Below, one piece after another: positions 2,023-63,962 of a stretch of DNA of 64,000 bases. The DNA lies in the NCBI GenBank assembly GCA_019055375.1, contig JAHQIW010000113.1, positions 62,001-126,000 of the forward strand, read 5' to 3'. This DNA is from Parelaphostrongylus tenuis (taxonomy: Eukaryota > Nematoda > Chromadorea > Rhabditida > Metastrongylidae). The stretch's first letter is position 1. Each line of letters opens with the position of its first letter. The position numbers and the translations under genes were made by a program. Below the pieces are notes generated by a model. It searched no databases and was not told where the DNA came from. It worked only from the letters and a program-made list of their open reading frames with translations.

Positions 2023-3165
2023 TAGTAAAAGGTCTGTGGAAATATATCGATTTACTTGACGAGAATGTTTGGAAAATCAGTAACGCGATGGCTAAATAGA
2101 AGTTATTATTAGGTATTCTCGTAAGTTTTGGATTAGAGCAATAAACAACAAATCTGTTAACCAGAAGTAAATCCATTTTACTGTTTGTAATCATTAGGAA
2201 GCTTAAATCATCATGAATCTGTCAATGTACTTATTTTTTGAAAGATCCTTTTTATGGCGCAGTGGCATCCAATAAAATTATGTTTTACCGCGCCGCGCGT
2301 TTTTATTGTTTTTATTATTAGTAACTTCCAATTCCGATTTTAATTTAGCTTTTTACTTCTTAATTTTGAGTTTTTGGCCACTTAATTTGGGGTTCAATGC
2401 TTTAGTGCCAAAACTTATGACGAAACCTAATAAAATGCTCCAATCTTCGTCTACAAAACCAACGCTCTTATTGTGAAATTTTGATTTTCTTCAAGTCCAA
2501 CGAACTAATTTTGCCCGTTTCCCTCGTCAAAGCTTGTATTTCGAAAGTGAAAACATTTGACAAACGACATTACTTACACTAGACTATGTCCGAAAATGAT
2601 GCCCCAAATTTTGACGTTTATTACAGCTTGGATTCCGTTTGGAGTTGTAGAAATTCAATTTTTTTTTGGAACTCTAACTGTAAACAACTACAGCAGTCAA
2701 ATCACAATTATATTCAAATTCACTTTTAAGTAACCCAATTCAAATCATTCCTTCTTCAAGTCCTCAACAATATAATATTGATACTACAAACAGTTTGCTA
2801 AAACAGCTTAGGACCCTGAGTGTTAAGGCCCCTGTATGGGATTGTGTTTAGAAGGCTCAAGTAATTGGTTTAGAGAAGTCTGACTGGCAATGAACAAGGT
2901 GTATAACCGACTGCAGTTAGTCCAGTTGACGAGTATAGGTAATATGAGAAATAACACTACTAAAGAGACGATGACAAGCATTCATCGAGTGATGTACTAT
3001 GATCATGTCGCACGTATTGCATTGTCCCATGATTTCTGCCGTACAATTGTTACTATTATTGTTTTATTCAGTGTTCTTCTAATTCAAGTCGCAATATTGC
3101 CAGATCGCTACGACACGTTGGAGAATGTTCTAGAAGCTTTAGCCATACGGTCGTAGCACCATCGC
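2023..3165. other. no recognisable gene
   Basis: This is AT-rich sequence with short frames only. The 88-codon frame at 2890-3156 lies just before the mariner remnant, but I could not match it to the mariner N-terminus. Confidence 0.4.
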
Positions 3166-4440
3166 TTGTTATCGAGGTGAAATGGGCTACGACAAAGTGT
3201 TGTCTCGATGAACACTTAAAAATCAGCCGACGACTTCCGCGCTGCACGCTCGATCATTTGCAATGGTCTTCTGCTGCGACCGCACAGGAAAAACTTTTTC
3301 AACCGATCATCACTGGAGATGGGTCCTGGGTTTACTACGAGAACATTACTCGACACGCGTGCTGGCTGCCTAGAGGCAAAGACCTGCCAACTCATCCAAA
3401 GCCCACATTCCATGCTCGGAAGATTATGCCTTCGGTTTCTAGGATTAGAAGGGCATGCTTCTTTGGAAACTGTTTGACAACAAGCAAACAATCAATGCCG
3501 ACGTCTGCGGGGTATTATGTTGGAAAGAAAGTTATGGGGTGCTGGTAAAAAATTGAAAATTTGTGCATGAATCCCAAGCAAAACAAATAATGACTATTTA
3601 TGAAAATAAAGGTCATCGTCTTCTACGACTTTTTGCCATCGGTCAGTCAAGTTTTGGATCTGTCGAATGCGGCCATTCCTTTAATTCCGAATCAAAGAAC
3701 TCTTGACATTCTTCTTCAATTTTATGAAACGATTCAAATCGGCGATAAAGTGTTGCACTGATTACCGGCATTGAAACGTCGAAATCAGCGTTCAGCAGCA
3801 GATATGCTCGTTGTGTCTTTCCGTTCAACTTCGTTGATTTCAATGATTGCAGCTTGCTTTGAAAGACTCTTTCTCCAATAATGACGCAATAAAACACGAA
3901 CTTCGATTGTATCGTTGGAGATGGCGGAAGCTTGTAACAAAGTGAAAATAAAGACGAATAATATCTTGGCCTTCAGGGGTGGGGGGAATCCCACATAATA
4001 ACCTGTAATATTCCCATGAGCATGAGAGTTATCTTATGCTTATCAAAGTGCTGGAAACCTTCCTCTTCAACCGAGTACAACTGCGGAAGTTGATCGTAGC
4101 AGTGCGAGAAAAGCGTCCGAAGTGGCTCAGTGTCGCCCTTTGCCAGGATAATACTCGACCTTACATTGCAAAGTCGACCGGCCACATTTTGGAGGAACTC
4201 GACTGACTACGGAACCACATTTACCGTATAGCTCTGATATTGCTCCATCGGTTTACCACCTCTTGCGCTTCCTGAGGCAGCATCTGCGGGAGGAAAAATT
4301 TAAATCTACAATGAGCTTAAAATTATCTTTATCGACTTCTCCGGTCTCTAGTCTCATTCTTTCTACAGGAAGCATCAAATCTTGGCCCAGTAAGTGGTTG
4401 CATATCATTGGTCATGATAGTGCTCAAATTGTTGATGGGT
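3166..4440 (+). mobile_element. mariner transposase relic, interrupted by a nested element
   Basis: Mariner transposases cut and paste DNA at TA sites with a DD34D catalytic domain. The 5' part (about 3177-3510) translates to a piece containing IITGDGSWVYYEN, matching the region of the first catalytic Asp (codon 3318-3320). It is followed by PKPTFHARKIMP and, in a shifted frame, INADVC. The 3' part (about 4050-4440) holds LCQDNTRPYIAKST with the second Asp (codon 4147-4149), then after a stop YSSDIAPSVYHLL. The third catalytic Asp (consensus APSD) is Val here (codon 4251-4253). C-terminal traces continue to about 4440 in shifted frames. The N-terminal DNA-binding domain is not visible. Stops, frameshifts, the lost Asp and the insertion at 3515-3998 make it a dead relic. 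Confidence 0.85.
3515..3998 (-). mobile_element. internally deleted mariner nested in the first
   Basis: On the minus strand, about 3940-3755 encodes a mariner-like N-terminal helix-turn-helix piece (EVRVLLRHYWRKSLSKQAA and FRRFNAG). This runs almost directly into a C-terminal piece at about 3760-3590 (RRFESFHK, EFFDS, then WQKVVEDDDLYF in another frame). The whole catalytic middle is missing. The ends form short inverted repeats, TTATGTTGG at 3515 and TTATGTGGG read inward from 3998. Each is flanked by TA (3513-3514 and 3999-4000), as expected for a mariner target duplication. Removing the insert rejoins the surrounding mariner near its INADVC segment. It is probably a MITE-like derivative moved by another copy's transposase. 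Confidence 0.75.
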
Positions 4441-6241: not shown

Positions 6242-6360
6242 GCAAGTCACAGTATACCTTTCCTTCGAGTGCTTTATTAAGACCACGCTCAAATTTCAAT
6301 GGATCCCTTCATCATTATTTGAGCCAACATGTCATGTGGTCTGGTAAGGGCTCTTGTACA

Positions 6361-6403
6361 GCCCGAGATACGTGTTTCGACCTTACAGACTCATCAGCCG
6401 GGC
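6361..6403 (-). ncRNA. hammerhead ribozyme, inverted unit, mildly decayed
   Basis: On the minus strand the CTGATGA core (6397-6391) and GAAA are intact. Stem I is GCCCGG (6403-6398) with TCGGGC (6366-6361). Two changes relative to the plus-strand copies weaken it: a U-U mismatch inside stem II and a C-A mismatch in the 4-bp stem III (ACAC/GTAT). Predicted cleavage is after the base at 6367. Activity is doubtful. Confidence 0.75.
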
Positions 6404-6831
6404 AGAACCCGTCGTCTGTCGATCTTTTCATAGTCGGTTCTCTCGGGAGCGTCACACTCCTTATATATAGTTATCGACGACCTACGCTTTACACTTTATG
6501 TCAAGTGAAACATTCAGCTAACACAGAGTGTTTTCGCACTCGATTGCTAGCTGGCTGGTATTTTATCATATTATACCTTCTTGACATGTTGGCTCAAATA
6601 ACAGTGAAGGGATCTATTGAAATTTGAGCGTGGTCTAAATAAAGCACTCGAAGGAAAGGTATAATATAATAAAATACCAGCCAGCTAGCAATCGAGTGCG
6701 AAAACACTCTGTGTTAGGTGAATGTTTCACCTGACATAAAGTGTAAAGCGTAGGTCGTCGATAACTATATATAAGGAGTGTGACGCTCCCGAGAGAACTG
6801 ACTATGAAAAGATCGACAGACGACGGGTTCT

Positions 6832-6874
6832 GCCCGGCTGATGAGTCTGTAAGGACGAAACACGTGTCTCGGGC
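6832..6874 (+). ncRNA. type I hammerhead ribozyme, intact
   Basis: All conserved positions are present. Stem I is 6 bp, GCCCGG (6832-6837) with TCGGGC (6869-6874), including one G-U pair. The core is CTGATGA (6838-6844). Stem II is GTC (6845-6847) with GAC (6854-6856) around a TGTAAG loop. GAA (6857-6859) is followed by stem III ACAC/GTGT (6860-6867), a palindrome with no loop. The cleavage triplet is GTC, so self-cleavage is predicted after C6868. A loopless 4-bp stem III folds poorly in one molecule. Ribozymes of this form in Penelope-like elements and retrozymes are thought to work as dimers or in tandem transcripts, which this array could supply. Confidence 0.9.
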
Positions 6875-7187
6875 TGTACAAGAGCCTTTACCAGACCACA
6901 TGACATGTTGGCTCAAATAATAATGAAGGGATCTATTGAAATTTGAGCGTGGTCTTAATAAAGCACTCGAAGGAAAGGTATAATATGATAAAATACCAGC
7001 CAGCTAGCAATCGAGTGCGAAAACACTCTGTGTTAGGTGAATGTTTCACCTGACATAGAGTGTTAAGCGTAGGTCGTCGATAACTATATATAAGGAGTGT
7101 AACGCTCCCGAGAGAACTGACTATGAAAAGATCGACAGACGACGGGTTCTGCCCGGCTGATGAGTCTGTAAGGACGAAACACGTGTC
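6869..7187 (+). repeat. predicted 319-nt ribozyme-to-ribozyme monomer
   Basis: This is the interval between the two predicted cleavage sites (after 6868 and after 7187). If the plus strand is transcribed and both hammerheads cut, a 319-nt linear RNA with hammerhead ends is released and could be ligated into a circle. The length is in the range of retrozyme circular RNAs. The unit has a TATATATA stretch near 7085 and several self-complementary stretches. It has no plus-strand open frame of note. Confidence 0.7.
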
Positions 7188-7193
7188 TCGGGC
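7151..7193 (+). ncRNA. type I hammerhead ribozyme, intact, second copy
   Basis: It is identical in all paired and core positions to the copy at 6832-6874: stem I GCCCGG (7151-7156) with TCGGGC (7188-7193), core CTGATGA (7157-7163), the same stem II and loop, GAAA, palindromic stem III ACAC/GTGT, and predicted cleavage after C7187. The two copies are direct repeats 319 bp apart. Confidence 0.9.
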
Positions 7194-7258
7194 TGTACAA
7201 GAGCCTTTACCAGTCCACATGACATGTTGGCTCAAGTAATAATGCAAGTCACAATATA

Positions 7259-19017: not shown

Positions 19018-19366
19018 GTTCTGTTTCGAGTGCTTTCTTAACATCACGCTCAAATTTCAATAACCTCATGAGTATTATTAGAGCAAACATATCATGTGGT
19101 CTGATTACAGGCTCTTGTAAAGTGCAATATAGTGTTTCGGCCTTGACAGCCTCGTCAGTCGGGCAGGCCCTTCCTCTTTAGCCAATCTTCTCGGGGTGCT
19201 CCAGTTCCCGCATTTAGAGTAAGCGACGACGAACGATTTACACGTGCCGTCAAGTGAAATAAATCACTAGATCGGCAGTGTTGCACACTCTATTGTTCTT
19301 GGTTAGTATTTTTGAAATATTATACCGCTCGTTTCGAGTGTTTCAATTTAGGTTTTATTACCCGCT
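19018..19366 (-). mobile_element. decayed family 1 retrozyme-like copy, partial dimer
   Basis: It aligns with the 6.2-7.2 kb unit along its length: TTCGAGTGCTTTCTTAA, CACGCTCAAATTTCAAT, CATGTGGTCTG, the inverted hammerhead, GTCAAGTGAAA and TATTATACC. After TATTATACC (19318-19326) the start motif TTCGAGTG recurs at 19333, about 308 bp after the first, and runs to about 19366. The locus therefore held a second unit in tandem. It is heavily mutated, so the insertion is older than the one at 6.2-7.2 kb. Confidence 0.75.
19122..19166 (-). ncRNA. hammerhead ribozyme relic
   Basis: On the minus strand the core is CTGACGA (19158-19152; position 7 is free to vary). Stem II is GGC/GCC and GAAAC is intact. 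Stem III and stem I no longer pair well (ACACTATAT; TTGCAC). It is inactive by inspection. Confidence 0.6.
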
Positions 19367-22535: not shown

Positions 22536-22585
22536 TGATGTGAGTGATGAGTCCCAATAATACGAAACAGGTGCCTGTATACCAC
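22536..22585 (+). ncRNA. hammerhead ribozyme relic, family 2
   Basis: The core reads GTGATGA (22544-22550; the first base should be C). GTCCCAATA is followed by ATAC instead of GGAC, so stem II is broken. GAAAC is intact. Stem III ACAGGTGCCTGT (22567-22578) is near-palindromic, followed by the A of a GTA cleavage triplet and TACCAC. Probably inactive. Confidence 0.6.
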
Positions 22586-22800
22586 TAGACCTAACAGCTC
22601 AAAACATGTTAAATCATTATCAGATTATATCATTTTGAGCGGGTCTATAAAAAAGCGGTTGATAGAAGTGATATGATTCATTATAACAGCTACGCACTCC
22701 ATTGCCAGTCACCACAATGTCAGGTAACTACGTCCACCTGCCTTGAGGTGATTTATCACTAGGCGTCGATTTCTTTATAGAGGATTATTTAAAGATAAGA
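22536..22800 (+). mobile_element. decayed retrozyme-like copy, family 2
   Basis: It starts within a hammerhead relic and continues through CACTAGACCTAACAGCTCAAAAC, an AT-rich middle, and then GTCACCACAATGTCAGGTAA, AGGTGATTTATCACTA and TATAGAGGATTATTTA. The last three blocks precede the hammerhead in the 63.1 kb copy, so here they follow a ribozyme. This implies that the original array was head-to-tail, with ribozymes at unit ends. Confidence 0.6.
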
Positions 22801-35760: not shown

Positions 35761-38700
35761 ATCAAGGATATTGCAATATAAATTTTTGAATTTCTGTATT
35801 TTCCACTACATATAAAGTCCGGAAGTCATCATAGCGATTTAAAACTAGAAAAAAAGGAATAGTTGTCCAAAAGTGATGGTGCATACTGCATACGACACCA
35901 GTTCATCGATAACTGTCAGTAGTGAACCGAAAAGAGGAGTGCCTCGTAATTACGCGTGACCTCGAGCCATACCTCAGGCCGATCTTTCCGGCCTGAGTTA
36001 GACACGGCCCACTGATACACTGACCCTAAGCGGCTGGTCTTCAATGAATAACTGATAGACACAAAACATCAAAACGGTGAGTGTTTCAAAATGAAGCTTC
36101 TACTTTGCGATCCAAAAATTCGTTTTTACTGTTTTCTGTTACGGTTGTGCAGGTTTTGGCTCAGTGGATTGTGGACCAATATGATCTTTCCAGGCTCTTA
36201 AGAAGGCGACCCGCCGGAACGTTAGCCACCTCAAATATTGTATATTCATGCTGCATTACTAACTGTATTGTTGCATGCCTCGTTAATTTCAAATAAATAA
36301 TATCAATAACATCTCGGAACGACTAAACAGAAGAAAATACACATTTCTTCAAACTATGCCAAAGTTAATAGATAGTTGGTCTTGGGAGTGATTTTTTTAA
36401 TCTTCAATTCACTTCAGGAGTTGGGACTAAAGCAGAATTATAGAACAGAATTCCTTCTATAGTTTTGTATATATTCGTTTTTTGGATATCCACTTATACT
36501 TCACTATATAAATGCGTCCATTTATACTTACCAGGCGTCGCAGCGTTTGTCATTAGATATGTCCTTACGTATAGTTTTGATGGTCATCGAGACGCCTTCA
36601 TGCATCTCCTTCAAGTTCCAACCTCTAAAAACAACTTCAATGTGATCACGTACAGGTGTTTGTGGCCGTCCACCAATAAAGCACAGATCTGGTTTGCCCC
36701 ACTGCTCCCCATGGGTATCCTCCTCCACTTTCACCGCTTCAGTGCACACACTTTGTTCTAGCTACGAATTAGTTATAGTTCACATATACGAAGAGGAATC
36801 AAGAACTCTTGCGTAAGGAAGGACTCAAAAGTCACAGACGTTTTCAGGAAAACTAGGAAGTACTACATACTTCTTGCTCATCATCATTGTCACTTGGCAT
36901 TTATTGTCTCCAGAGGTGCACCTTCGTAAGTGGTCGACGAGAAAAATTTATGAGTAAATTCGACTTTCTGAAACTCCAGTGAAAGAGGAACCTTTGAAAC
37001 TCCGCCCAACATTGTACTGAATTGTGCGTAATCTCATTAGGAAAACTTTAAGTGGTCAAAGAAAATGTCGTCATTGAGACTTCTACTCTACTCTTGACAA
37101 CGTTGAGAGGTGTTCAAGGAAACGTAAGGCTTAGGTGCAAACGAGCGATCGGCTTCTACGAATTGTACACGCCCTATATTTAGAAGTTGATTGCAGAACA
37201 GACACATCTATGGTCATTGTATGATTGATGAGTGGAAAAAATTTCACTCTCACAAGATAGGGACAAGACTGCGCAGAAAAAGGTAAAAATATATTTATTT
37301 TCAGAAGATGTCGAATTCCTAGTGAAAAGATTGACGGATTGTTGATGGTCATTCTTCCTGCCTATAAAAATCTCCTTGGCATATGTTATTTTTGTGTCAA
37401 TGAAGTGTTCCAGTCATCTAAATTTTACTATTTAATTGTCAGCAATACCCAGTGTGAAGTTTGAACAACGGGTTATTTATTCCGAAAGCGAAGAGTATTT
37501 TTCTCCTTTGCTCGTATAGCGCACTATATTGGCTTTGAAAAAACGGGTCAAACGCTAAAATTTTCATTTTTAGGCTATCGAATTACTACTAGATAAATCG
37601 GCAGAACACCAGGAAGTATTGCTCGCTGATTGTGGGAAGATCATATCAAAGCAGCAGGGATATCGTGAGTGGTGCTATCGTACGACCAAATGTAATTTGT
37701 TGCTGACTGATTACCTGTTGAATATTTTGTAGGAAATCTGCAACATTAGTGAAAAGATTCAAAGAATTGGGTGAAGAAAATGCATTCTATTCGAAGAAGC
37801 ATTTCGCCAATTGAAGAATGCGGACTCTACCAAAGCTTACACCGACAGCATATCAAACGTCTCCTTCAGACAAGTCACTTTGAAGAATCATACAATGTAA
37901 AAAATGTTTTCTGCAATCAAACTCTCGAAATATAGTGGAACGAAATGTGGAAAATGAATCGCGATTGCGTTGTTATCTAAAAGACGCAGCGTTTGGATGA
38001 AAAGTAGAGAATTTTTGGGATAGATGGAAGTTGTTTCCACTACAAGTACTCTTGCAAAGCTTTCTTCAGTAACACTCTATCCTTCTGTAGCGATAAAATT
38101 ATCTTGGAATTCAACTTTTGTCGTATAATTGCTAAGAAAACCTGCTGTGATATTCGAACAACGGATTATTTACACTGAAAACAAAACGTTATCTTTTTTT
38201 TCGTTAGTAGAGCATGCTATTTAGGCTTTTCTCACAAAACAAAAATATCAAAGTCAGCATCTTCCAAGCAATCGAATCACTAACGGAACATCGATAAAAT
38301 AAGGAGAAGATACCAAATAAAAGTTGGAAATAACCTCTTCTGCAGACGTACCGCGTAACATAGAAAAAATCGTGGCACTTGGTATTTTTGTCTCCCGATT
38401 AATAGAAATTTTTGTGACATTTCATCTTTGTGTAACGATAAAATGCTTCTAACATAGAAACTTTGCCCATGAGTATCAATAAATCCGTCATGTAGTTCAA
38501 GCGACGGGCTGACCACTTCGGGCGCTAACGTAACACCAATTTTGACTCCAGAATATCCGAGATTTGCTGCCGAATGACTGCTAAAATGAGCAAAAGGCTA
38601 TCCTCAAACCCCACGCGAAGAAACGAAGCAAGCCGAGTGTGAAACAACGTGTCATTTTCGTTGCTACACAATAAGGAAGGCTTTTTTTTTAGAAAATCAA

Positions 38701-53956: not shown

Positions 53957-54845
53957 GGGTAACAATCTCACCAAAATTATTTTGGGACGATATGGGAGTA
54001 AAAATTGACGCTCGACATTGAACCATCTTCGCTTTGCTGAAAATATCGCTCTTATGAGACAAAGCATCAGTCAGGCGGAACGGTTGTTAACCAATTTTTG
54101 AAAAAGGCCGTTGCAAAGATTGGTCCCCACTAAATCTAATGAGAACTATATTTACTGTGAGCAAATGGGTTTTGAGTGCCCCATTCACTCTCAACAAAAC
54201 GAACATCTCCGAATGCTCCAGTTGTGTCTATCTAGGTCGTGAAATCCAAAATGATGAACGATCTAGCTCCAGAGTTAACCAGGAGAGAAAAGAGCGGCTT
54301 GGGAGCGTTTTAGAGCATCAAGGACGTAGTGAAGGGGACGAAGAACATCCAACTCCGTTTCATCTTTTCGACTCGACGATTATCCCTGCCCTAACGTATG
54401 CGGCAGAAGCTAGTCGCTACGTAGGCAGGATTAAATATCATTTAGCGTTATTGAACGCGCAATCGAAAGGCCAATGTTAGGAGTACCTCCCTAACTCGCA
54501 AATGAGAGAAAGTATCCGAAATTACGACTCATGTTAACGATCGGAGAACAAACGCCGTTCTACACTACAGGCTATCGAAAATAAACTGGGCCGGACACGT
54601 AATACGCTCAAACGACAACCGATCAACGAGAGCCCTTTCCGACTGGATTCTTCGGGATGTCAAGCGCTCGACAGGAAGACCACCAACCCAGCGGAGCGAT
54701 TTCTTTACTAAAAGCCTAGAAGAGATATATGATGCTGACCGAATTCCTAGAGCTAGGAGAACCCACTAGGCTATAAGGCTAGAAGTGTTGCTGGTGCCCA
54801 CTCGAGTTGCTCGACGATCAACAGAACGACAAGTAATACAGGTAA
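53957..54845 (+). mobile_element. RTE-clade non-LTR retrotransposon, decayed 3' end
   Basis: RTE elements encode an endonuclease plus reverse transcriptase that copies RNA at nicked target DNA. Only the C-terminal part is here. It starts with GVTISPKLF joined directly to WDDMGVKIDA, with a few residues of the usual RT sequence missing between. Next comes HLRFAENIALM (54024 onward), where the catalytic FADD motif reads FAEN (54033-54044). The best frame, at 54139-54480, carries APFTLNKTNISECSS, VYLGREI and HLFDSTIIPALTYAAE. After a frameshift, WAGHVIRSNDNRSTRALSDW, TGRPPTQRSDFF and YDADRIPRARRTH follow to a stop near 54770. The endonuclease and RT fingers are absent (5' truncation is typical). 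Several frameshifts make it dead. Such an element could have moved the SINEs, but this copy cannot. Confidence 0.9.
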
Positions 54846-55141: not shown

Positions 55142-55428
55142 GATCTCATCATTTTATCTGAGCATACATGTCATGTGGTCTGGTAAAGGGCTCTTGTACA
55201 CGCCGATATACGTGTTTCGACCATACAGTCTCGTCAGTCGGGCAGAACCCGTCGTCTTTCAATTTATTAGCCAATCCTGTGTGGGTGCTGCAGTCACGAC
55301 ACTAAGAGGTATCGAAGGTGAACGTTTTACACTGAGAGTCAAGTGAAAATATCGCCGAGCCTACAGTGTTTTACACTCGATTGCTCTTTGGCTGGTATTT
55401 TTATAATATTATACCTTTATTTCCTTCT
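55142..55428 (-). mobile_element. decayed family 1 retrozyme-like copy, single unit
   Basis: It matches the family 1 unit from CATTTTATCTGAGCATACATG through CATGTCATGTGGTCTGGTAA, the hammerhead, GGGCAGAACCCGTCGTCT, GTCAAGTGAAA and the end TATTATACCTTT. It is the best preserved of the copies outside the 6.2-7.2 kb composite. Confidence 0.8.
55203..55241 (-). ncRNA. hammerhead ribozyme, core intact
   Basis: On the minus strand stem I CCGA (55241-55238) pairs with TCGG (55206-55203). The core is CTGACGA (55237-55231), stem II is a perfect GAC/GTC around TGTATG, and GAAA is intact. Stem III ACAC/GTAT has one C-A mismatch, and the cleavage base is A. Possibly weakly active. Confidence 0.7.
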
Positions 55429-57345: not shown

Positions 57346-58014
57346 AGAAAAATGGTACAAAACTTGCTTGTGAGGAGAAGTAATGATCTGGTACGGTACG
57401 ACGGCAAACCTCCGCAAATCATTGTAAAATCCGGACACACATTCAATCACCTCTGCAATGCTACGAATTGGATCGAATGCATGGGCCATCGACTCCCAGT
57501 GATCAGTCATCTCGAGAAAACTCATGAACTATTTGTCGAATAGACTTGAATTTTAGTCTCCATTATGAACAATATGTTATAAAAACTCAAGACGCCTGTT
57601 TAGGGGAAGACAGACCTTATAATTTACTCCCGCAACTGTGATAACTGCACATCGATGAACTAGACCGCTACACGAGTCCGTCAAAGATGACGCAGTGTTT
57701 AAACTTCTTGCAGCACGTCAGAACTTAAATAAAGTAGTATACCAGTCTTGCAGAGTTCTGAGAGTTATTTGTAAAGGTAATGAACGATAAGTACATAACT
57801 TCGCCGCAGAGCGAATGGGGAAAAAGGAAATATGTATCTCTGTTCGTGTGTTCGTGTATAACGTACAGATTCATTCAAACCATTGCAAGAAAACACCATC
57901 TAATTATTAGTTGCAAATGAGGAACCATTTTTTGCAAATGTATAATTCAATATTAATTTAAATGAACTAATCTTGGTGCATAGAAGAATTTTATTTTATT
58001 AAATTGAAAATTTT
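57346..58014. other. no recognisable feature
   Basis: Overlapping short frames at 57220-57543 are unrecognised. Confidence 0.35.
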
Positions 58015-58165
58015 TATTCGCCGTCGATTCCTTTACAGAGGATTAATTAGCCTCAGGGAATCGGCTGGACCGAGGGAGGGTGTTACTGATGAGTCCCAAT
58101 AGGTCGAAACAAGAGCCTGTACGGCACTAAAAGTAACAGCTCAAAACGTGCCATATCCTTAGCAG
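58015..58165 (+). mobile_element. family 2 retrozyme-like fragment
   Basis: CGCCGTCGATTCCTTTACAG, AGGATTAATTAGCCTCAGGG, AATCGGCTGGACCGAGGGAG and GTAACAGCTCAAAAC align with 63190-63325. The fragment starts abruptly after an A/T-rich stretch, consistent with truncation at one end. Confidence 0.75.
58080..58127 (+). ncRNA. hammerhead ribozyme, family 2, near-intact core
   Basis: The core CTGATGA (58086-58092) and GAAA (58106-58109) are intact. Stem II GTCC/GGTC has one U-U mismatch around loop CAATA. Stem III (58109-58120) has one mismatch and a 2-nt loop. The triplet is GTA with cleavage predicted after A58121. Stem I GTGTTA/CGGCAC pairs at five of six positions, including two G-U. Activity is uncertain. 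Confidence 0.75.
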
Positions 58166-60594
58166 AGAAGAACGTATGAACAGAACTAGTCATAATTTTA
58201 AGATCAACATAGGGTATTCTGATTTATCTGTCCGCAAAAAACGCCTCAGTTAATCAAAGAAGACATTACGGTGGCCGCATTCATATTGAGAATTGATTCT
58301 CTTTAGTTGACAGCATAAGCAAAATTCTTCCTTGTAACTACCTCGTAAAATGAATTGCACACCGCCTTCGCGTAGTGAAAAGGAGCTTTAATTTAATCAG
58401 ACAATATAAGATAGCAGCAAACAAGAACCGTTCCATATTAAAGAGGCACTGCCACTTGACACTACCCTATTTACACGGTAATTCAAGTGTATTTCAATCC
58501 AGAAGGCTTCACTCAATGCAACTCTGAGATCCCTCACTGCTAGGACCAACGTCTGTCAATCGACGTGGATCACCTGACAAGGCGAAGGCGCCATAGTGTT
58601 AAAAGAATAAGAGCGCTCTGATAGCCTTATATGAGCTGAATAGTCCAGAAAGATGTAGACTATTTATGCTGAAGTTGGGCACAAATCGAGTTATCAAAGT
58701 ACATCCTGTGTAGGTTTGCCTAAAAAGTATTATGTTGTTGTCAGAGCTCGGACGTGTGGCTTGTCAGCGTTGATTTGAATTACAAGGTGAAGGAAAGCAT
58801 TACAGTTAAGACGTCTATTTTATCACAATTGTTCGATGGGCTCAGTTGTGGTGCAAATAGTTTCCTTTCCTTTCTGGTTCAGCATGGGCATCTGCAAATC
58901 CACCTCACTTAATAATAGTAAAAACACTTTTTTTACGATACAGCGGATATCAAATTTTGCTGTAGATCCCGCACCACCGAGAGTTTGAATAGAAACAAAA
59001 ACTGTTCAGTAATCGTAAGGCCGCGAAAGATCAAGTCCTCTTTTGAGACTGTCTCGAAAAGCGCAGAAAAGATTAGTGACTCAAACTCCATAAAATGAGA
59101 TAAAAGTTTTTAACTGTAATCAAAAATACTTGAGTAGAAGTAAAAGCAAGAAAAAAGGCTATTCAAGGATATCATGCAAGACTTCAAACTTCCCGAAATT
59201 TTCGCTGAATGAATGAGAATTTTGTATAAAGAAGTCAAACGCAATGCTACCAAAACACACTCTCAAGTGAACCGAGTATTCGAGTATTCAATGAAAAATT
59301 GTGGAAACAGGCACAATACTACAGTCTTTGAATAACCTCCAGAGGACGATAACGATGATTAGCATTGTATACAGTAATCTCGTAATCAACCAATCGAAAG
59401 ACAATCGTCGACCAACGGTTTTCTTCGCTTGCACGGCTACCGTAGACCGTCAACGACAGCGCGATCTAGTGAGACCACGACGTTGTCGAATGAATTGCGG
59501 GACGTGATCGAATCGTGCTCGTAACGCTGACAAAAGTTCACAAGAGGGTCATTTTATGAGTTTTACGCCCGATGAGAAAAAGCTATTGAATCACCGGTTA
59601 ATGGACTACGTAACACCACTTAGCCTAGTTGAGAGAACCCTGAACACGAGGCATCTAGGGCTACGGCTTATGATATTTTCTCATTAGAACATTTAAAGCT
59701 TCGATATAATAAGTCCTATATACAGATTCCAAATCTAGTCTTGTTGATCAAAATCAATTGTTGAGAATTGTGCTGCTTCCTTCAATTCCAAGCGCGCATG
59801 TTTGTATATCTGAACTAATACAAACATCCAGTACATCCATTATCCATCTAATCGTCTTGCTTCTAAACACACATCTGTTAGGAAGAACGGAATACAAGAA
59901 GTATAAAGGCCTCTCGTTTAACAGAAACGGTTGACACTATTAGAAATCAGAAGACTTGTATCTCGCATTGTACTCGCATTGTAGGAGCCATCCAAAATAA
60001 TCAAAGCGCTGCCGATGAAGTTTCCTAAGGTCATCGACCCGACCTTTCTCACAAAGTAACCAAATACCCAGTGATTTAAAAACTGGGTTCGGTCGGTTCG
60101 TTGGTGAAGGGTTACATGACAACTTTGTATATATCACCTGACAGCATGCTATGAACAGTCGCGTCTAAATCAAATCCCAAATATACCACTTCTGTGTGGC
60201 CGAAATTACTGTTAGAAAGGACGAGTTGTTTGCGGTGAGTGGACAATATAAACACATATAAGCGCAACAAATAGGAATCGTAAATATATCATTTCACACA
60301 AACGAATATAGTATGCAAACTGAAACAAGGTGAAAACTCACAGGGTGGATGTGTACACTGACTTTAACTTGTATTGATGTAGTTGGAGTAGAACGTTCTT
60401 CTGCTGATGGCCTAATACAAAATGATAACATAGGGCTGTTGTCGCCGATTTCGATGACGTTATTGACAGAAACGTGTATGACGTCATAATGAATAATTTT
60501 TCAGCACAAAGATTCTGCTAAATATTCTTGAAGACTTCAAAATTGAAGCGAAATTTAGTCTAGCTCAGCTCAAATTTTTGCTTACATACTTTTC
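58166..60594. other. no recognisable gene
   Basis: Short frames only; nothing recognised. Confidence 0.4.
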
Positions 60595-60720
60595 GTTCCG
60601 AGTGTTTTCTTAAGAGCACGCTCAACTCTCAATATGCTTGATTTTTTGAGCCACACATATAGCCTGTTATAGACCACATTTCGGCTTACATTTCCACACA
60701 TCTATGTCTCTCTCATTTAC
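60595..60720 (-). mobile_element. truncated family 1 retrozyme-like fragment
   Basis: TTCCGAGTGTTTTCTTAAG, GCACGCTCAA, CTCAATATGC and TTTTTTGAGCC match the end segment of the family 1 unit. Similarity fades around a TTTCGGC word at about 60690 before a complete ribozyme appears. Confidence 0.6.
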
Positions 60721-62385: not shown

Positions 62386-63136
62386 TCGACTGACTCAGTG
62401 CAAATTGCTCATAGCAAATGAAACTTTTATTTCTATGCGATATGCAAGCGCTATCTGCCTAGTGACTGCCGCTTAAGGAATGACTGCCCAAGATCGTTGT
62501 TTGTTTGAACTTCAGGCAAACATCTTGATCTTTTGGGAAGCGGAACCATGCGTTACGAAGATAACGATGTCGATTGATAGCATAAGGTAATGGCGACCTG
62601 AAGAATCCTGATATTCGCGTAACACTTGGTTTTCGTTTTTTTGACTTCCATATTGTGATTTAATCAACTTTACGTCATATTCTTACTATGATTACAGTTA
62701 ACGAACGTAATTCTCTTCTTAAATTCACTGTATATAGTTAATGCGCCCAGAAAGTACTCAACATTCGACCACAAGGACACAAAGACAATTAAGGGAAGTA
62801 AGAGAAAGACAGAAAAGGATTCTGAGCAATCAGAGGAGTGGTAGACAACAGTGTAGTCAAGTTTCCCAGGCGTTCAAGTTTTTCATAGTACTTCACAGAA
62901 ATCTACACTTTGTTTGTGCATCTCGTACAGTCTGGAGCTCATAGAACAAAGTTTCATTATCGAACGTCAAATATAACTGAAGGGGTTCCTGCCAAATTTG
63001 ATGACCGACATTGCCGTAACTCATGCACAATGACTCGACGTAGACATATTGTTAGCCAGCCATCTGTAGCATATGATAAAGAGACTATAATTTGACTATT
63101 GACTACAAAGACTATTTCATTGCAAACCCCACAAGC
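62386..63136. other. no recognisable feature
   Basis: Overlapping short frames at 62741-63154; nothing recognised. Confidence 0.35.
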
Positions 63137-63325
63137 TCGACTGCCCGTCACCAAATGTCAGGTAATTCCATCACCTGACTTAGGGTGATTCACTACTCGG
63201 CGTCAATTCCTTTATAGAGGATTATTTACCCTCAGGGAATCGACTGAACCGAGGGAGGGTGGTACTGATGTGTCCCAATAGGACGAAACAGGCGCCTATG
63301 TAGCACTAGACCTAAAGGCTCAAAA
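63137..63325 (+). mobile_element. family 2 retrozyme-like copy
   Basis: It contains CACCAAATGTCAGGTAA, CACCTGACTTAGGGTGATTC, CCTTTATAGAGGATTATTTA, CCTCAGGGAATCGACTG and ACCGAGGGAGGGTGGTA, running into the hammerhead, then CACTAGACC and GGCTCAAAAC. It is the most complete pre-ribozyme part of the family in the window and shows the order that the 22.5-22.8 kb copy has in permuted form. Confidence 0.75.
63259..63306 (+). ncRNA. hammerhead ribozyme, family 2, mutated
   Basis: Stem II GTCC/GGAC around CAATA is perfect and GAAA is intact. The core reads CTGATGT (63265-63271; A9 to U). Stem III has one C-A mismatch (ACAGGC/GCCTAT). The cleavage base is G (63300), which hammerheads do not accept. 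Stem I pairs at five of six positions. Inactive by inspection, but it shows the family's stem II and stem III well. Confidence 0.75.
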
Positions 63326-63962
63326 CATATTACTTCTTAACTATAAAATGAGAGTGCAAATAATAGAAAACAACGCGAAACAGCTAGTACATGAGCAACA
63401 GCAGGGCATCAGGCTATCGGTGGATAAAATAGAGCGATGAACATTCAGTAATAGTGATACGAGTCGCTGAACATACCAACTAAAAATTGGACGAGGAACT
63501 AAAGGGCATTTATTCAACAAGAGCTCAGAAGTAGTGTTTACTTCAAATTTACATTTCGCAGAGATTATTTATGGTAAAATTGTGAACACAAAAGTACACG
63601 ATTACTGAGAAGTCACGTAGAATCATCTGTTTTTTATACACGCACACATTAACAAGTACAGTATTTTTGCTAATGGAAGACTGAAACGATAGAAATGGGA
63701 AACACTAACGCCGTTGTGTGATGAAAAAATGAGTGATGAAATTGAGAACGGAAATGGGATAGGGAGAGAAGTTGCTAAACAACCACGGTCAAAGAGAAAA
63801 ATTGTAAAAACGGATTATAACGATGACAATTAGGCGTTCTGAATGGTGAGGACTCGATTCCCATAGAACGAGAACATTTGATGGCAATCGATTTTTTGAA
63901 CGCAGCAACGATCGCTGTTATTAAAGTACAAAATAATGATATGAGATAAATATACACGGAAA
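63326..63962. other. no recognisable feature
   Basis: Nothing recognised before the terminal CA repeat. Confidence 0.4.

Follow-up and report, generated by a model that had tools for sequence, protein, structure and literature searches.

Positional evidence on how a head-to-head hammerhead retrozyme family may be inserted in a nematode genome

The closest described counterparts of the element reported here are the metazoan non-LTR retrozymes, which in the available text of Cervera and de la Pena 2020 (PMC7229834) carry type I hammerheads in tandem units of 170-400 nt, have a G+C content below 50%, need no ORF, are flanked by target site duplications (TSDs) of more than 4 bp and occur in many copies. 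The family that we describe from the nematode Parelaphostrongylus tenuis shares these features and departs from that account in arrangement and host: the same text reports retrozymes as tandem and never as 'inverted', whereas those found here are mostly head-to-head with two fixed ends, and it names no nematode. It considers Penelope-like elements (PLEs) a strong candidate for moving animal retrozymes, leaving open the enzyme and the use of a circle as template.

PLEs, in the available parts of PMC3846280 and PMC11167929, likewise have head-to-head arms, short TSDs, two end sites and a short tail on one arm, and their end sites lie at a similar distance past a hammerhead. In the available portions of PMC11167929, the PLE protein of a lizard cleaves each strand of the target and extends it, and has two neighboring internal start sites that bound the tail; in a rotifer Penelope, a tail is present on one inverted pLTR (PMC3846280, likewise in part). 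In contrast to the non-coding retrozyme, PLEs encode reverse transcriptase (RT) and GIY-YIG domains, and a blastn comparison of the retrozyme with six PLE loci detected no sequence in common. Plant LTR retrozymes (PMC4918200, as relayed in the accessible text of PMC7229834 and PMC7761336) are also non-autonomous, with hammerheads and a circular RNA of the kind predicted here; they differ in having type III hammerheads, LTRs, 4-bp TSDs and circles of 600-800 nt, as against type I hammerheads and 10-15-nt TSDs here. The hammerhead repeats or W-elements of Schistosoma (PMC8490949, in excerpt) are similar in placing hammerheads in short, presumed-mobile repeats of a parasitic worm, a likeness confined to the hammerhead repeats, and their host is a platyhelminth, unlike the nematode here. 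Among the literature matches listed, which cover few subscription papers and include PMC7761336, PMC8490949, PMC11722881 and PMC6155905 as related work available in part, nothing concerned this nematode retrozyme family or its footprint.

Anatomy of the window element and its family

We analyzed a 64-kb stretch of DNA (the window) within an assembly of 481.5 Mb and 5,105 contigs. It contains an element of about 1 kb that an earlier sequence-only reading had described as a tandem repeat. The two direct units of that description stand (6582-6900 and 6901-7219, plus strand, 319 nt each), and the description was incomplete in that it missed a third, inverted unit at 6253-6579, which makes the insertion head-to-head: TSD, inverted arm, two direct units, TSD. 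The inverted arm (minus strand, 327 nt, slightly more than one unit) has site A at its outer end, and a 2-nt junction (6580-6581) sets unit position 75 opposite unit position 1. On the right, a partial third unit (7220-7244, plus strand) has the outer end B at unit 24-25, just short of the usual 28-35. Carrying positions over from related loci places site B (unit 28-35) at 6928-6935 and site A (unit 76-85) at 6976-6985 of direct unit 2, both on the plus strand. The near-perfect 15-bp direct repeat noted earlier on the flanks (6242-6256 and 7244-7258, 15 nt each) has one mismatch and acts as a TSD, the final four nucleotides of its left copy, TATA, being common to the element end. Its origin in a larger segmental duplication, which had been offered as grounds for refutation, is not supported, as 24 related loci in the curated set each carry a TSD of their own, different in sequence and 10-15 nt long.

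Both direct units contain a hammerhead that matches the Rfam type I model RF00163 (6832-6874 and 7151-7193, plus strand, 34.9 bits each against a gathering score of 34, E 5.5e-5), so that the covariance-model check suggested earlier bears out two intact type I hammerheads lying as direct repeats 319 nt apart. Cleavage past GUC is expected at 6868|6869 and 7187|7188, the two cuts would accordingly be 319 nt apart, and the monomer predicted from the sequence, a linear or circular RNA (6869-7187, plus strand), fits the back junction proposed for it. The 31-nt hammerhead core occurs in the window twice exactly and once with two mismatches (0 in 100 shuffles); the mismatched copy is that of the inverted arm (6367-6397, minus strand), where one mismatch disrupts a stem II pair. 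Stem III is, as had been read, a palindrome, ACACGUGU, and is loopless in one drawing, a stem of 2 bp capped by a palindromic tetraloop being the other; this second form has been described for invertebrate retrozymes (PMC7229834, in the text available). The Penelope likeness that was drawn from stem III holds, and reaches beyond it to the insertion anatomy.

Tandem-repeat analysis of the direct units gave a period of 319 with 2.1 copies and 97% matches. Between the two full units there are 8 differences in 319 positions, and 313 and 315 of their 319 positions agree with the consensus of the family, near enough for the insertion to be called young, as it had been, in a purely relative sense; the two arms (6247-6579 and 6656-6988) are 97% complementary. 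The G+C content of the unit is 0.44. No coding ORF was found in the element, the frames of at least 90 aa across it being pieces of the same non-coding repeat, and it lacks the RT and GIY-YIG ORF of an autonomous PLE; a Pfam search of seven window ORFs returned no match at E 0.001. There is good support for a mobile element of the retrozyme type whose predicted product is 319 nt long, and a circular RNA from it is a prediction.

Across the genome, the 31-nt core with at most two mismatches has 3,875 copies, compared to 0 for a reversed control, and a search for exact matches found none in viral contigs. A 319-nt consensus was built from 82 full units, including those of two loci omitted from the locus counts below (L044 and L047). 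Divergence from it is 1.2% in the hammerhead region versus 3.4% over the whole unit, with 14 of 276 stretches of hammerhead-region length showing lower divergence. This preservation argues, at the level of sequence, that cleavage matters to the element. Folded as a circle, the unit exceeds 100 shuffles in stability by about 5 s.d. On the features tested, its sequence places the element among non-autonomous, non-coding retrozymes of the metazoan (non-LTR) kind, in what we take to be a nematode genome of strongylid type. At least 31 other Rfam hammerhead matches were found, 20 of them above the cut-off, when 74 of 119,811 candidates were scored, and 12 loci retrieved from these mostly belong to a related family, family 2, in which the stem I sequence differs and its pairing is kept.

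Several other features were observed. The window holds older remnants resembling family 1 (55174-55418, 19025-19343 and 60586-60658; 67-82%) and family 2 (63115-63328, 58011-58166 and 22545-22793; 75-83%), and Rfam reported none of these six. An RT fragment at 54091-54480 is closest to RT proteins of Angiostrongylus and Necator, a unit of about 80 bp is repeated at 801-955 (1.9 copies, 93%), and a broken frame at 3033-3548, for which Pfam reports nothing, resembles a mariner transposase in its motif. Elsewhere, contig C3131 (loci L069 and L070) is a tandem array with a 568-bp period that matches the SL1 RNA model at 47 bits, below the gathering score of 75 (36 matches); these 2 of 70 loci contain what we take to be the exact nematode SL1 sequence.

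Head-to-head arms and two outer end sites

We decoded 48 loci and kept 46, omitting L047, which is the element of L020 found again on a different contig, and L044, which is truncated where its contig ends. Forty of the decoded loci (L009-L048), among them the window's own, were taken as those that best match the window dimer, and over-represent long arms; a further eight (L061-L068), drawn without similarity bias, correspond to the final 8 stretches, with 10 places, in the list of the first 100 cores. Inverted arms are present in 28 of the 46 loci, comprising 20 of the 38 ranked by similarity (window included) and all 8 chosen by a perfect core alone, and were not seen in the other 18. Among the first 100 listed cores, neighbors within 2 kb are oriented -/+ 19 times, +/- never, -/- 4 times and +/+ 3 times. 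The 3' sides of both arms point outward, and head-to-head is the usual form of family 1. Four non-inverted loci (L029, L033, L038 and L042) run from near unit 54-72 to A; they span about two whole laps plus a dozen nucleotides, as if copying had halted at its own start site.

The outer ends fall mostly at two places. Using automatic intervals, 37 of 74 arms end at A (unit 76-98) and 27 at B (unit 25-47), 64 together, and where ends could be aligned on the TSD, A lies at unit 76-85 in 19 of 21 and B at unit 28-35 in 17 of 19. These sites are 62 nt (B) and 110 nt (A) past the hammerhead cut, a spacing of 48 nt that recurs in family 2, where one element flanked by a 12-nt TSD has its ends 42 and 90 nt past the cut. 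The two ends of an inverted element are mostly of different kinds. Tallied by hand in the same intervals, 18 of 28 inverted elements are A/B, A/A and B/B do not occur, and the remaining 10 have an end beyond these intervals (L013, L018, L025, L037, L041, L046, L061, L065, L066 and L068); reading the junction letters moved L013 and L068 to A/B and L041 to B/B, giving 20 of 28 A/B, 1 B/B, 0 A/A and 7 other. Counted as A/B are L026, nested in an older copy, and L028, with its B end at unit 24; the window element is itself A on the left and B on the right. If the sites were used independently, about 49% would be A/B. A probability of 3e-6 was computed for 21 of 22 A/B elements with L065 taken as B; L065, which ends at about unit 10-18, was dropped from the final count, and for 20 of 21 a hand calculation arrives at a probability of the same order. 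The 7 of 28 inverted elements in which an end falls outside both sites count against mobilization by PLEs, as do the 18 of 46 loci in which no inverted arm is seen. Two inverted loci (L018 and L066) have a non-A end at unit 304-306, a possible third start site.

The TSDs of the 24 curated loci, a chosen set, are 10-15 nt long (median 12). An automatic TSD score of at least 9 was reached by 30 of 48 loci (L044 and L047 included), versus 2.75% of 400 mismatched pairs, and some of these 30 (for example L014, L029, L033, L038 and L042) reflect the repeat of the element itself or simple sequence. A+T content is 72% in TSDs and 69% in flanks. Microhomology between element end and target averages 1.77 nt, compared to 0.47 nt with shuffled TSDs (43 ends). 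The motif GAAAGG, considered as a general priming signal, was rejected: in family 1 it lies ahead of both sites, and in family 2 and the PLE it does not.

Arms cross the hammerhead cut in 69 of 74 cases, and 46 of 74 are longer than one unit. The highest counts of inner ends are at unit 305-320 (10 of 74), 1-16 (9), 65-80 (8) and 177-192 (8), with the inner ends of five loci (L016, L021, L024, L025 and L026) approximate owing to split alignments. Only 1 of 74 lies at unit 129-160, within the long hairpin of the circular fold, and we read the ends at unit 177-192 as probable stops ahead of this modeled hairpin. At the cut itself (unit 283-293) we found 2 of 74 inner ends. A cleaved linear monomer was rejected as template on these figures, and the crossing of the cut together with the scarcity of inner ends there indicates that the template was a circle or an uncut multimer. 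At 1 of 29 -/+ junctions the two arms meet at unit coordinates no more than 20 nt apart, versus 3.7 expected by chance. In family 2 copies (L050, L051/L052 and L055) the arms meet at the same coordinate.

Penelope-like elements of the same genome

GIY-YIG searches yielded 1,723 candidates, of which 150 matches were scored. One 420-aa frame holds both RVT_1 and GIY-YIG and is therefore Penelope-like; among its best 120 of 189 relatives, the named ones come from Ancylostoma, Haemonchus, Necator, Angiostrongylus and other strongylids. Neighbors within 6 kb among the 150 scored matches are -/+ in 20 cases, +/- in 0, -/- in 1 and +/+ in 1. One copy (L077) was read to both ends: its head-to-head arms are 99.8% alike, it has a 12-nt TSD, and a 44-nt tail is present at one end only. 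It thus has in common with the retrozyme its head-to-head arms, its one-arm tail and its short TSD. Its ends lie 60 and 104 nt past the cut of a motif picked by eye, which we take to be hammerhead-like from its likeness to published PLE ribozymes, and are spaced 44 nt apart. Rfam found no hammerhead in the PLE. A stem-loop at site B common to both retrozyme families and the PLE was also considered; it can be drawn in all three and was set aside for lack of support from shuffles, the end-site structure having z 0.65 in the PLE (not more stable) and -1.5 in each retrozyme family (weak). Anatomy, TSDs, two end sites, the head-to-head rule and PLEs of like anatomy are all observed in one genome.

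Two PLE copies (L075 and L077) have arms that share their starting coordinate; the arms of L077 are separated by about 100 nt of other sequence. These joins and those in family 2 suggest that a second joining route may exist beside the one proposed below. At one locus (L061:1491-1573) an inverted retrozyme arm ends at unit 259 and directly adjoins 75-82 nt of PLE coding sequence, 79-84% alike and in the same orientation; no TSD was found for this adjacency, and a template switch between retrozyme and PLE RNA, or a chance adjacency, is possible. Elsewhere (L023:850-1516), an old PLE fragment stops about 20 nt before a retrozyme copy. The sole match of PLE proteins to the window is weak (35919-35987; 23 aa, E 7e-4) and corresponds to the end of the PLE protein.

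A proposed route of insertion and its rivals

From this footprint, which joins observations made separately in the PLE and retrozyme literature, we infer an enzyme, a transcript, its cleavage and a circle. We consider it probable that the non-coding retrozyme is inserted by a Penelope-type RT that primes from both target strands, likely off one RNA circle. A multi-unit transcript would cleave itself at its hammerheads into 319-nt monomers, which would be ligated into circles. The RT/GIY-YIG endonuclease of a PLE of the same genome would then cut the two strands of an AT-rich target with a stagger of about 12 nt, and both target 3' ends would prime reverse transcription, aided by a few nucleotides of microhomology, one start falling at site A (about 110 nt past the cut) and the other at site B (about 62 nt past it). 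Each cDNA would run from a partial lap to several laps, and joining of the inner ends would produce the observed order of TSD, inverted arm, direct arm and TSD.

The A/B rule is most simply explained by copying from a monomeric circle, because such a circle carries one A and one B, and the two starts would be forced onto different sites. That the rule actually records copying from one circle is a reading we hold tentatively, at somewhat below an even chance. An uncut linear multimer might instead be the template, with an enzyme dimer holding A in one subunit and B in the other. Arms that cross the cut are allowed equally by multimer and circle, and the available text of PMC11167929 lends this alternative two further points, the PLE protein being modeled there as a dimer and hammerhead mutants still being inserted in vitro, which does not favor a need for cleavage. 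A multimer offers several A and B sites, however, so that A/A and B/B elements should be common unless an extra rule is added, and we observed 0 and 1; the preserved hammerhead likewise argues that cleavage matters. We regard a multimeric template as rather unlikely.

We think it improbable that a LINE-type enzyme (for example RTE) inserted these elements by ordinary target-primed reverse transcription, with the inverted arms arising as 5' inversions. Twin priming does yield head-to-head arms with TSDs, the RT fragment in the window is akin to strongylid RTs and indicates that such enzymes existed here, and the absence of an inverted arm from 18 of 46 loci would suit this origin. It would not lead us to expect fixed outer ends, one for each arm and separated by 48 nt, nor inversion in 8 of 8 loci picked by their core, and the PLEs of the genome have the same anatomy as the retrozyme, as judged from the retrozyme and PLE copies compared. 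Fold-back self-priming of the cDNA, of the antisense-template kind proposed for head-to-head PLEs (PMC3846280, in the text available) and in keeping with the same-coordinate joins of the two PLE copies and the family 2 copies, or an assembly or amplification artifact, is very improbable as the source of the inverted arms, given that same-coordinate junctions in family 1 are fewer than chance predicts, that the outer ends differ between arms and the window arms have diverged, and that each locus has its own TSD.

The family is a source of positional evidence both on the mobilizing enzyme and on the RNA circle as template. Both questions are now testable, because the predicted start sites are placed to within some 10 nt, the stagger is put at about 12 nt and the genome itself holds candidate enzymes. 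These results place an abundant hammerhead retrozyme family in a nematode. If the circle reading is true, its thousands of copies would be a fossil record of circular RNA serving as a real template for retrotransposition, and of Penelope-type enzymes inserting from both target ends.
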